This document shows positions 43,058 through 59,581 of a stretch of DNA of 64,000 nucleotides, piece by piece. Both the position numbers and the translations under genes were made by a program. This DNA comes from Microbulbifer sp. Q7. GTDB lineage: Bacteria > Pseudomonadota > Gammaproteobacteria > Pseudomonadales > Cellvibrionaceae. Below the pieces are notes generated by a model. That model was not told the DNA's origin. It did no database searches and saw only the letters and a list, made by a program, of their open reading frames with translations. How positions within the stretch are numbered: the first letter of the stretch is position 1; each line of letters starts with the position of its first letter. The stretch is from contig NZ_LROY01000002.1 in assembly GCF_001639145.1 (NCBI RefSeq), positions 528,501 to 592,500 of the forward strand. The letters run 5' to 3'.

Positions 43058-45637
43058 ATGCAAACCCAGGTAGTCGATAAGTCGAGCGGCGTCCTGAGTT
43101 CGTTTGATTCCACCAACGTGGTTTTAAACTCACCAGGTTTCGTCAAGCTTGCCCTGGCACAAGAAGACATTGTTTCTTTCTCCAGGGCCGGTGACGATCT
43201 GATTATTCAGCTGGACAACGGCGAAATAGTTACGATCGCAAATTTTTATTTGGCGGATGCCACCAGTACCCAGAGTGATCTTTTTCTTGAAGATCCGCAG
43301 TCGGGCGCAGTGATGCTCGCTCAGCAGGGTGCAGATGGCTCCATTTTTTCCATGGCCCAGGTCAGTAGTAGTGCTGACCTGGCAGGCGTGGTTCCATCCG
43401 GTGGGGAGTACGTCTGCCCCTGGGTGTGGGCGGGCCTGGCGGCGCTAGGCATCGCCGCAATCGCAGCATCAGCGGATGATGACTCTGGCGATCGCGGGTT
43501 CGAGCCGTTTGTGCCGCCACCTCCACCGTCTCCACCACCGCCACAATCGCCGCCCGCGCCCCCGCCTGGCGAAACTGAACCGGAGCCTCCGGTTGAGGCC
43601 CCGCCCCCCATTATTATCGACCCCGAGCCGCCGGAACCAGAGCCGCCCGCGCCACCGCCTGAGACAGAGCCGCCGTCGCCGCCGCCTGAGACAGAGCCGC
43701 CGTCGCCGCCACCACCGCCGGACGGAGATGCTGACGCGGATTCGGACGCGGATGCCGATGCAGACACGGATGCCGATGCGGATGCCGATGCAGATACGGA
43801 TGCCGATGCGGATGCGGATGCAGATACCGACGCCGACGCGGATGCGGATGCAGATACAGACGCCGATGCGGATGCTGATGCCGATACGGATGCCGACGCG
43901 GACGCGGATGCGGATGCGGATGCTGACGCGGATGCTGACGCGGATGCTGACGCGGATGCCGATGCGGATGCTGACGCGGATGCCGATGCGGATGCCGATG
44001 CCGATGCCGATGCCGATGCCGATGCGGATGCGGACGCGGATGCCGATGCGGATGCGGATGCCGATGCGGATGCGGATGCGGATGCGGACGCGGATGCCGA
44101 TGCGGATGCTGATGCTGATGCTGATGCTGATGCGGATGCGGATGCGGATGCGGATGCGGATGCGGATGCCGATGCGGATGCCGACGCTGACGCGGATGCC
44201 GACGCGGATGCCGACGCTGACGCGGATGCCGATGCCGATGCGGACGCCGATGCGGATGCCGACGCAGATGCTGACGCAGATGCAGATGCAGATGCAGATG
44301 CCGACTGCGACATCAATATCGACATCGACATAGATATTGACATCGACTGTGAGTGCGACGCTGATGCCGATTCAGACGCAGACGCAGACGCAGACGCAGA
44401 CGCAGACGCCGATGCAGATGCAGATGCAGACGCTGATGCCGATGCCGACTACAACTTCAGCTACGAATTTGATTTCCACGGCTATGAAGTGGATATCGAC
44501 GTCGATGTGGACATTGAAAAGTCTGGCAGTCACAAGGATGGCGATTGTGAAATCGACATCGATATAGACATCGACATTGATATCGAATGTGACGCGGACG
44601 CAGATTCGGACGCCGACGCCGACGCCGATGCCGACGCCGATGCGGATGCCGATGCGGATGCCGATGCGGATGCGGATGCTGACGCTGATGCGGATGCGGA
44701 TGCGGATGCGGATGCGGATGCAGATACGGATGCCGATGCCGATGCCGATGCAGATGCCGATGCGGATACGGATGCTGACGCAGATGCAGATGCCGACGCA
44801 GATGCAGATGCCGACGCCGATACCGATGCGGATGCTGACGCGGATGCTGACGCCGACGCTGACGCTGACGCCGACTCGGATCTCGACAGTGGTATTTCCT
44901 ACGTCGCATTCCGGTTGGAAGACGGCAGGGTGATTAAGGTTGAGGGCTTTGAAGGCGAGTTCGCTGACATCAAGGATCCCAAGTACCCAGAGTCACTTTA
45001 CGATTGCATCGAGGAAGAGTACGGCTCAGCGGTCGATGTCGATGGCCCTGGAGATCCCTACATCATCAAGGCCGGGTCGGATGGCATTGGCAATGGGCAT
45101 TACGACCCGGATGGCAATGAAGTCACGACTGCGGGTTGGCCCACCAACCCTTCCGGAAATGTGGGAGGCGATGGTGTCTCTGACTCGATCGATGTGGCCG
45201 ACCTCTGTGATGATGCGGAGATGTCGATGGCAGAATCGAGCATGACGTCTGCCATGGCTGAAGATCTGGATGTCGATAGCAGTGCGCTGCACGACAACCC
45301 GGAACTTGAAGCGATGCTCGAGGCTGCTCTGCAAGAGGCATTGGAAGATGCGCTTGACGACATCATCGAGTTGGCAGAGCAGATCGCCGACGACGGAGAA
45401 GACTGTGGATTCTCCGGCTCCTCCTCAGCAGGAGAGCTCGAGTCACCACCGACGCTGGAAGACTTGTTGGCTGACTACCTGGAAAGTGATCCACTGCCAG
45501 GCTTGGGAATGAGTGATTCCCTCGGTCAAGACCTGGGTGAATTCCTCCAGCAGAGTGATACTTCGGAGATGTTGCCACCAGATATGGATGACCCAATGAG
45601 AGATCTCTGGTCTCAAAATGGAAATCACGATCTGTAA
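43058..45637 (+). CDS. Secreted Asp-Ala repeat protein with BapA-like prefix; probable type I secretion substrate
   Basis: This 859-residue, extremely acidic protein has: (1) a BapA/LapF-type prefix domain (about 20-110, VVLNSPGFVKLALAQEDIVS and a GDDLIIQLDNGEIVTI core); (2) a hydrophobic patch WVWAGLAALGIAAIAAS (123-138); (3) a Pro/Glu-rich linker (150-223); (4) Asp-Ala repeat block 1 (224-416); (5) a Cys-capped alternating Asp/Ile segment (417-433); (6) block 2 (434-464); (7) an aromatic/Val-Asp segment and a second Cys-capped Asp/Ile segment (465-511); (8) block 3 (512-606); (9) a mixed acidic C-terminus (607-859) with a helical part near 760-790. In block 1 Thr replaces Ala at 237, 247, 257, 267 and 277, a 10-residue period. 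There is no Sec signal and no RTX nonapeptide. A type I exporter follows, which makes it the likely cargo. Function unknown: acidic surface polymer, metal binder or modification scaffold are possible. Confidence 0.85.
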   Translation: MQTQVVDKSSGVLSSFDSTNVVLNSPGFVKLALAQEDIVSFSRAGDDLIIQLDNGEIVTIANFYLADATSTQSDLFLEDPQSGAVMLAQQGADGSIFSMAQVSSSADLAGVVPSGGEYVCPWVWAGLAALGIAAIAASADDDSGDRGFEPFVPPPPPSPPPPQSPPAPPPGETEPEPPVEAPPPIIIDPEPPEPEPPAPPPETEPPSPPPETEPPSPPPPPDGDADADSDADADADTDADADADADTDADADADADTDADADADADTDADADADADTDADADADADADADADADADADADADADADADADADADADADADADADADADADADADADADADADADADADADADADADADADADADADADADADADADADADADADADADADADADADADADADADADADADADADADCDINIDIDIDIDIDCECDADADSDADADADADADADADADADADADADYNFSYEFDFHGYEVDIDVDVDIEKSGSHKDGDCEIDIDIDIDIDIECDADADSDADADADADADADADADADADADADADADADADADADADTDADADADADADADTDADADADADADADADADTDADADADADADADADADSDLDSGISYVAFRLEDGRVIKVEGFEGEFADIKDPKYPESLYDCIEEEYGSAVDVDGPGDPYIIKAGSDGIGNGHYDPDGNEVTTAGWPTNPSGNVGGDGVSDSIDVADLCDDAEMSMAESSMTSAMAEDLDVDSSALHDNPELEAMLEAALQEALEDALDDIIELAEQIADDGEDCGFSGSSSAGELESPPTLEDLLADYLESDPLPGLGMSDSLGQDLGEFLQQSDTSEMLPPDMDDPMRDLWSQNGNHDL
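43727..44305 (+). repeat. Asp-Ala codon repeat block 1
   Basis: 193 codons alternate GAY with almost only GCN. Third positions vary freely (GAT/GAC; GCG/GCC/GCT/GCA) while the amino-acid pattern is kept. A 30-base sub-period marked by ACN codons is visible at its start. Confidence 0.95.
44357..44449 (+). repeat. Asp-Ala codon repeat block 2
   Basis: 31 codons of the same GAY-GCN pattern, beginning with the Asp-Ala-Asp-Ala-Asp-Ser-Asp motif that also follows the second Cys-capped segment. Confidence 0.93.
44591..44875 (+). repeat. Asp-Ala codon repeat block 3
   Basis: 95 codons of GAY-GCN with occasional ACN (Thr), starting with the same seven-residue motif as block 2. Confidence 0.95.

Positions 45638-59581: not shown

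Follow-up and report, generated by a model that had tools for sequence, protein, structure and literature searches.

A BapA-type Asp-Ala repeat protein with type I secretion and ligase-like enzymes in Microbulbifer, and a barrel family that follows Asp-X repeats

Background

The Asp-Ala and Ser-Asp repeats of surface adhesins are commonly seen as passive stalks or as binders of calcium, and acidic proteins often migrate large on gels. A published biofilm adhesin, BapA of Paracoccus denitrificans, carries 891 Asp-Ala repeats, is exported by a type I system, is required for biofilm formation and is predicted to bind calcium, and attachment is stimulated by calcium (PMC5588039). It runs larger than its true mass and, in the available text of that paper, its authors do not exclude modification and cite the unusual composition. 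Here we describe a locus that lies in a 64,000-nucleotide window (the whole stretch of DNA analysed; contig NZ_LROY01000002.1, positions 528,501 to 592,500) of Microbulbifer sp. Q7, whose genome (G000) comprises 3.95 Mb in two contigs and whose closest named proteins come from M. salipaludis (86 and 93% identical). The locus joins a BapA-type Asp-Ala protein and a type I system to ligase-like enzymes that likely add amino acids to the Asp residues of the repeat in the cytoplasm before export, a reading that we hold with moderate confidence. Part of one of these enzymes is a barrel domain, here called TOR, which follows Asp-X repeats well beyond this genus.

The repeat protein and its locus

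The locus consists of eight genes, the last convergent, with the following features (positions in the window):

43058..45637, forward strand: BapA_N protein with Asp-Ala tract (P0001), the presumed exported scaffold; Pfam PF22783, 78.8 bits, cut-off 27
43721..44314, forward strand: longest Asp-X tract, 99 units, residues 222-419 of P0001, from the tract count; tandem-repeat rows give the same stretch
45800..47284, forward strand: TolC-type outer membrane channel of type I secretion; TIGR01844, 251.5 bits, cut-off 225.15
47281..49548, forward strand: LssB-type type I secretion permease/ATPase; TIGR03375, 801 bits, cut-off 693.1
49548..50858, forward strand: HlyD-type periplasmic adaptor; TIGR01843, 341.4 bits, cut-off 208.65
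50882..51832, forward strand: transglutaminase-like protein (P0005); PF01841 Transglut_core, 65.3 bits
51799..53925, forward strand: cyanophycin-synthetase-like ATP-grasp module, apparent degenerate ATP-grasp-like module and acylphosphatase (P0006)
54026..54721, forward strand: 2-oxoglutarate/Fe(II) (2OG-Fe(II)) oxygenase family protein (P0007); PF13759, 74 bits, cut-off 27; TIGR02466, 66.8 bits, cut-off 62.5
54767..59581, reverse strand: TOR-CapA-MurF fusion (P0008); open reading frame (ORF) 54767-59701, likely ATG start at 59581
57842..59581, reverse strand: TOR, N-terminal region and (alpha/alpha)6 barrel
57002..57850, reverse strand: CapA-like (PGA_cap) module; PF09587, 191.6 bits
54770..56254, reverse strand: MurF-like ligase module with P-loop GTAGKSS; TIGR01143, 219.8 bits, below the cut-off of 288.6; MurF 4cvk, E 1.1e-28

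A preliminary description made from the letters alone had named these genes, and ORFs together with Pfam and NCBIfam matches place them where it did, with no other gene between. By coordinates, the genes from TolC through the ATP-grasp protein overlap or lie at most 25 bases apart.

P0001 has 859 residues, among them 235 Asp and 190 Ala. Its longest tract runs through 99 uninterrupted Asp-X units, and its five tracts of at least five units hold 175 units in total, of which 147 are Asp-Ala. The Asp codons of the 99-unit tract are invariant at their first two positions and vary at the third (entropy 0.82 bit), so the Asp-X alternation is kept at the protein level; all four Ala codons are present and the third position of the non-Asp codon reaches 1.78 bit. 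This codon variation shows that the tract is no simple DNA microsatellite, and chance or a sequencing artefact is ruled out by the synonymous variation together with the recurrence of the same repeat in relatives, which retain the tract despite a change in length (859 residues in the window, 1008 in the closest relative, L087). The BapA_N prefix domain, above its curated cut-off, places P0001 among the BapA-type type I adhesins. It also has the long Asp-Ala dipeptide tract known from Paracoccus BapA, and its own secretion system lies directly downstream, with the TolC, LssB and HlyD models all above cut-off.

To the left, the locus is flanked by a major facilitator superfamily transporter followed by aminopeptidase-like and phosphatase-like genes, the latter two named by eye, and to the right by a protein of the NADH:flavin oxidoreductase family.

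TOR follows the Asp-X repeat

TOR forms the N-terminal ~580 residues of the CapA-MurF fusion and had been overlooked in the preliminary description. No Pfam or NCBIfam model matches the window TOR at E <= 1, and a PDB sequence search returns hits of E 0.14 and worse only. Fold comparison, which spans residues 200-558 only, assigns it to the (alpha/alpha)6-barrel family, with the fold of AGE and cellobiose 2-epimerase; identity to cellobiose 2-epimerases is 8-12%. Public annotations of TOR proteins read poly(glycerol-phosphate) alpha-glucosyltransferase, glycoside hydrolase family 127 or Mur ligase, and the Listeria TOR gives weak, sub-cut-off matches only (GH88, GH127, LanM, cellobiose 2-epimerase).

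Plasmids proved informative as to what TOR accompanies. It is present at E <= 1e-30 in 54 of 72,556 plasmid records, and among 19 loci fetched from these records, picked across genera, 16 have an Asp-X tract of at least 10 units, against 0/40 control loci without TOR (637 kb), which are unmatched. We further examined 10 of the 17 plasmid records with a BapA_N match. Where an Asp-X tract is present TOR is found in 5/5 loci, with tract and BapA_N in the same ORF in L222, L241 and L248 and associated by position in L227 and L239, where BapA_N lies just outside the stretch. Where the tract is missing (L243-L247, of which L244 and L247 have type I genes) TOR is found in 0/5 stretches, which reach unequal distances past the adhesin and in L246 end inside it. 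According to the 54-record list, four of these tract-less records are TOR-free throughout, and in the L247 record TOR lies ~146 kb away on the circle. As for the seven further BapA_N records, judged by coordinates, two from Agrobacterium have TOR within ~8 kb, three from Acinetobacter have it ~250 kb away, and two from Salmonella are not in the TOR list.

Gram-positive bacteria present the same association without the exporter. TOR stands directly after SdrF in Staphylococcus epidermidis and, in Listeria, directly after an LPXTG protein that contains 141 Asp-Ala units. In S. simulans, S. lugdunensis, S. aureus and Enterococcus it immediately follows Asp-Ala/Asp-Ser proteins. SdrF and SdrD B-like proteins are among its neighbours, and no type I system was found in the fetched stretch of these loci. 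A Mur ligase gene adjoins TOR in S. simulans, where it is MurF-like, and in one S. aureus record, and a second S. aureus record has such a gene beside TOR in pieces. Since the tract-bearing BapA_N loci have TOR and the tract-less ones do not, TOR follows the Asp-X repeat and not the prefix domain or the exporter. The tract-less BapA_N loci and the Gram-positives without type I genes rule out that TOR is tied to BapA_N, or to type I secretion itself. The preliminary description had spoken of six gene families around Asp-Ala repeat proteins; the steadiest partner of the repeat is this unnamed barrel, whereas export route and further enzymes differ from case to case.

On an Acinetobacter plasmid (L235:8779-12156) a large adhesin-like ORF without a tract lies directly upstream of TOR, and a 404-residue ORF with a weak CapA match comes after it.

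Distribution within Microbulbifer

Our genus survey covered 48 Microbulbifer genomes, that of the window included. The TOR part of P0008, read from match ranges, is present in 36 and BapA_N above cut-off in 28 (31 at E <= 0.001). All 28 BapA_N genomes have TOR, and BapA_N exceeds the cut-off in 0/12 TOR-less genomes, among which G024 and G035 show weak matches under it. Relatives of the transglutaminase-like protein occur in 23 genomes at E <= 1e-10 (20 of them strong, at least 282 bits), those of P0006 in 20 (18 covering most of the protein) and those of the 2OG protein in 13 at E <= 1e-5. The genomes with a strong transglutaminase-like protein, a near-full P0006 or a 2OG relative (20, 18 and 13, respectively) all fall within the 28 with BapA_N. 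Within the genus the tailoring genes thus accompany Asp-rich repeat proteins; their occurring mostly without such proteins in relatives was what the preliminary description had named as refuting it. An Asp-X tract of at least 10 units lies in the fetched stretches of 27 of the 36 TOR genomes; three of the nine others are broken at contig ends, with a BapA_N piece on another contig (G019), or contain a masked interval (G011, G031).

Several arrangements depart from that of the window. In L116, L120 and L132-L135 TOR keeps its site, alone or in a shorter fusion, with neither type I genes nor a repeat protein, and may there be a decay remnant or have an independent role. In G005 (L119:3673-5832) Asp-Ser units make up most of the tract, and no transglutaminase-like, ATP-grasp, 2OG or Mur part is present in the locus. 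The ATP-grasp/acylphosphatase gene is duplicated in tandem in L103, L104 and L105 (G046, G026 and G047), and its relative lies elsewhere in the genome in G028, G029 and G043, in the last adjoining a class-III aminotransferase. Acylphosphatase recurs near TOR in a different ligase fusion, a 791-residue protein of G020 (L130:11729-14104) that combines PGA_cap, acylphosphatase and a TupA-like ATP-grasp.

Distribution outside the genus

In wider genome samples TOR is rare: it was found in 2/369 genomes of the class sample, one being the window genome, in 14/398 of the phylum sample, two being the window genome and a genus member, and in 1/289 in the class of G702, namely G702 itself. From the 12 other genomes of the phylum sample 14 TOR loci were fetched. 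Five have a strict Asp-X tract (L206, L212, L215, L217 and L218, the last with Asp-Gly units) and four have type I genes or an adhesin-like ORF (L207, L213, L216, L219). Much of the window set recurs in L207, where HlyD lies at the end of the contig, accompanied by TOR-CapA-MurF and ATP-grasp genes.

Through the transglutaminase family we reached Microvirga soli, an alphaproteobacterium with a 1173-residue ORF containing 444 Asp-X units in one run and, on the same contig, an ABC transporter, HlyD, two transglutaminase-like genes and a large TOR-Mur fusion described below. In a Gallionella metagenome-assembled genome, CapA-Mur and a transglutaminase-like gene occur together with an Asp-Ser repeat protein at the end of the contig. 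A 612-residue Gallionella protein (L148:10939-12777), TOR-like by eye, gave no phmmer match to TOR at E <= 1e-3 (20% in alignment) and was left uncounted. The other mapped loci of the transglutaminase scan (L149, L151-L153, L155, L171, L175, L183) have no such gene set, and no plasmid relatives of P0005 were found at E <= 1e-15.

Other neighbours of TOR in the phylum sample deserve mention. By eye, pilin-like and secretion-ATPase-like ORFs, not type I genes, stand beside it in L209 and L210. In L206, L210, L215 and L217 it is adjoined by proteins of 315-357 residues that look secreted, resemble one another by eye and carry an HExxH motif (HELFH/HEFFH); the two tested gave no Pfam match, and no transglutaminase-like gene was detected in those loci.

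Taken across phyla, TOR and the ligases may form a system that recognises the Asp-X repeat and builds peptide side chains on its Asp residues, giving brush-like, cyanophycin-style surface polymers from encoded Asp-Ala and Ser-Asp repeat proteins, which would include staphylococcal Sdr and the Listeria LPXTG protein; we offer this wider reading tentatively. The TOR family likely marks a mode of surface-protein modification in bacteria that has gone unrecognised.

The tailoring enzymes and a proposed route

The ATP-grasp module of P0006 belongs to the cyanophycin-synthetase (CphA) branch, in line with the likeness drawn in the preliminary description, and the protein reaches 212.7 bits against the CphA equivalog TIGR02068, whose cut-off is 850; the Mur module that completed the proposed likeness is MurF-like and sits on a separate protein. 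Predicted secondary structure alone suggests a second, degenerate ATP-grasp-like module, placed between the catalytic one and the acylphosphatase; the fold comparison spans residues 78-397 and 618-707. MurF is the closest known ligase to the Mur module, whose TIGR01143 score remains under cut-off, and a separate MurF-like gene is found elsewhere in the window genome (G000:C2:1958266-1959450). The CapA module scores 66.1 bits against NF038314, far under the cut-off of 700, and is presumably cytoplasmic because it is fused with Mur.

P0005 carries a hydrophobic, signal-like N-terminal segment (by eye), and its Cys203, His240 and Asp255 are invariant across 30 aligned sequences. It was considered as a LapG-type protease and rejected, there being no Peptidase_C93 match and PF01841 Transglut_core being the sole match at E <= 0.01. 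For the 2OG protein a PDB sequence search gave E 0.5 and worse only.

From these sequence relationships we propose that the MurF-like and cyanophycin-synthetase-like ligases add amino acids to Asp side chains. TOR would bind or act on the Asp-X tract, while the CphA-like ATP-grasp and MurF-like module would convert the carboxylate to an acyl phosphate and then to an amide bond, stray acyl phosphates being cleared by the fused acylphosphatase. The CapA module, whose relative MslH epimerises a peptide, would likewise epimerise the added residues or else trim them, and the 2OG enzyme may hydroxylate. The unfolded Asp-Ala protein would be modified in the cytoplasm and then leave by the type I system, to be processed or cross-linked outside by the transglutaminase-like protein. 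The added group might come from D-amino-acid chemistry of the peptidoglycan kind, a possibility suggested because MurF, Peptidase_S11 and the CapA/MslH-type module recur as partners.

Such partners also allow a cell-wall tether, in which MurF-like, Peptidase_S11-like and transglutaminase-like enzymes build or exchange D-Ala-type stems on Asp and so link the adhesin to peptidoglycan. MurF being the closest ligase would fit this, as would the S11-like or beta-lactamase-like partners beside or fused with TOR or TOR-MurF in L099, L121 and L150, but the window locus yielded no Peptidase_S11 partner, the Listeria partner already has an LPXTG anchor and Gram-negative type I export bypasses the periplasm; we regard the tether as very improbable. 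The L150 fusion is a 2327-residue ORF of Microvirga soli (L150:2682-9665) that comprises TOR, two Mur modules, a D-Ala-D-Ala carboxypeptidase-like (S11) domain and CapA.

An analogy with CapA/CapB capsule synthesis had also been drawn. It does not follow, because CapA is here fused with Mur and its sole solved relatives by sequence at E <= 0.01 are MslH entries (8gq9, 8gqb, 8ith and further entries); moreover, no CapB or CapC partner was found among the locus proteins scanned. The same scan bears on whether the Asp-Ala protein is an unmodified calcium-binding adhesin while a separate peptide polymer, soluble or capsular, is the product of the ligases. CphA and CapB do produce free polymers, and Paracoccus BapA is a calcium-linked biofilm adhesin for which the available text of PMC5588039 mentions no tailoring enzymes. 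Against a separate polymer, the scanned proteins include no CapC-like or other polymer exporter, TOR tracks the Asp-X repeat across phyla and export routes, and BapA itself runs large, with modification left open in that text; we therefore consider a separate polymer distinctly unlikely.

Evidence that weighs against modification by the ligases

A number of observations count against the reading in which ligases extend the Asp residues of the repeat. Being relatives of MurF and CphA, the ligases might take free metabolites as their substrates. Tract-less TOR loci exist on plasmids (3/19: Variovorax L229 and L240, Acinetobacter L235; L240 starts at the cut of a circular record, whose other end, L242, is also tract-less), and 5/14 TOR loci of the phylum sample (L208-L211, L214) lack tract, type I set and adhesin-like ORF in the stretch. 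Six Microbulbifer genomes keep TOR at the same site with no tract or type I genes in the stretch and no BapA_N over cut-off anywhere, with shorter fusions in G009 and G045 (1446 and 1459 residues) and TOR alone in G030, G044, G040 and G038. The transglutaminase-like, ATP-grasp and 2OG genes are each absent from several genomes with the Asp-Ala protein. The 40 control loci without TOR, being also without type I adaptors and in many cases archaeal, are not a matched set. Finally, in S. epidermidis, S. lugdunensis, Listeria and Enterococcus the genes beside TOR include no detected relative of the window ligase modules, so that TOR must do something by itself, and the fold relatives of TOR act mostly on sugars.

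The last two points bear on an account in which the cassette does act on Asp-X but TOR performs the main chemistry, on sugar or backbone, the ligases being lineage-specific extras and amide extension not the shared function. TOR is, however, frequently found fused to, or next to, modules of the MurF-like or ATP-grasp kind: the search, with longer fusions outside its length limit, found 1428 TOR relatives at E <= 1e-6 among 7,994 candidates scored, and of the best 120 of these 1428, Mur ligase Pfam domains are present in 47 and an ATP-grasp domain in 2. The nearly pure Asp-Ala tracts also offer almost no hydroxyl for O-glycosylation. We consider this account unlikely, and retain modification by the ligases as the preferred reading.

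Were Asp indeed altered, the product would be a template-encoded, ligase-decorated polymer intermediate between cyanophycin and glycoprotein, which would matter for biofilm adhesion and materials chemistry. With one enzyme family accompanying the repeats in marine proteobacteria as well as in staphylococci and Listeria, chemical alteration of Asp becomes directly testable.

Comparison with known systems

In the open-licence literature, among the matches listed, no cassette of ligase and barrel that follows Asp-X repeats across phyla was found, and none on Mur ligases and adhesins concerned such a cassette; no paper was found there that links Mur ligase to type I secretion adhesins or serine-aspartate, or cyanophycin synthetase to acylphosphatase.

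The known modification of the serine-aspartate repeats of staphylococcal Sdr/Clf proteins is N-acetylglucosamine on Ser, added by SdgA/SdgB. These are exported dipeptide-repeat adhesins with dedicated modifying enzymes, a kind that P0001 would join, whereas the window tract is almost all Asp-Ala and its enzymes are ligase-like. Compared with CphA1/CphA2, the window has no CphA-type protein, its MurF-like module lies on another protein with TOR and CapA, and the acceptor would be a genetically encoded chain. CapBCA poly-gamma-glutamate synthesis also has a CapA, but the CapA module of the window is enclosed in a fusion protein together with TOR and Mur.

ATP-grasp-type ligation at acidic side chains is known from tubulin polyglutamylation and glycylation, and graspetide precursors are short and cyclised. 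With graspetides, as described in the available part of PMC8939145, the window would share such ligation at acidic side chains of ribosomal products, and it differs in having as acceptor a long repeat protein (859 residues) with a barrel partner. The lasso-peptide epimerase MslH (PMC10406935) is a solved relative of the window CapA module, which sits between TOR and MurF.

With Paracoccus BapA/BapBCD the window locus shares the kind of scaffold and exporter. Tailoring genes go unmentioned in the available text of PMC5588039, and the word "ligase" is absent from its main text, whereas the window locus has candidate genes of that sort; the oversize migration of Paracoccus BapA would fit cytoplasmic modification, but large apparent size is common in acidic proteins. 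The locus had been put forward as an undescribed system. An Asp-Ala scaffold with type I export was already known in kind, and it is the tailoring cassette that appears to be new.

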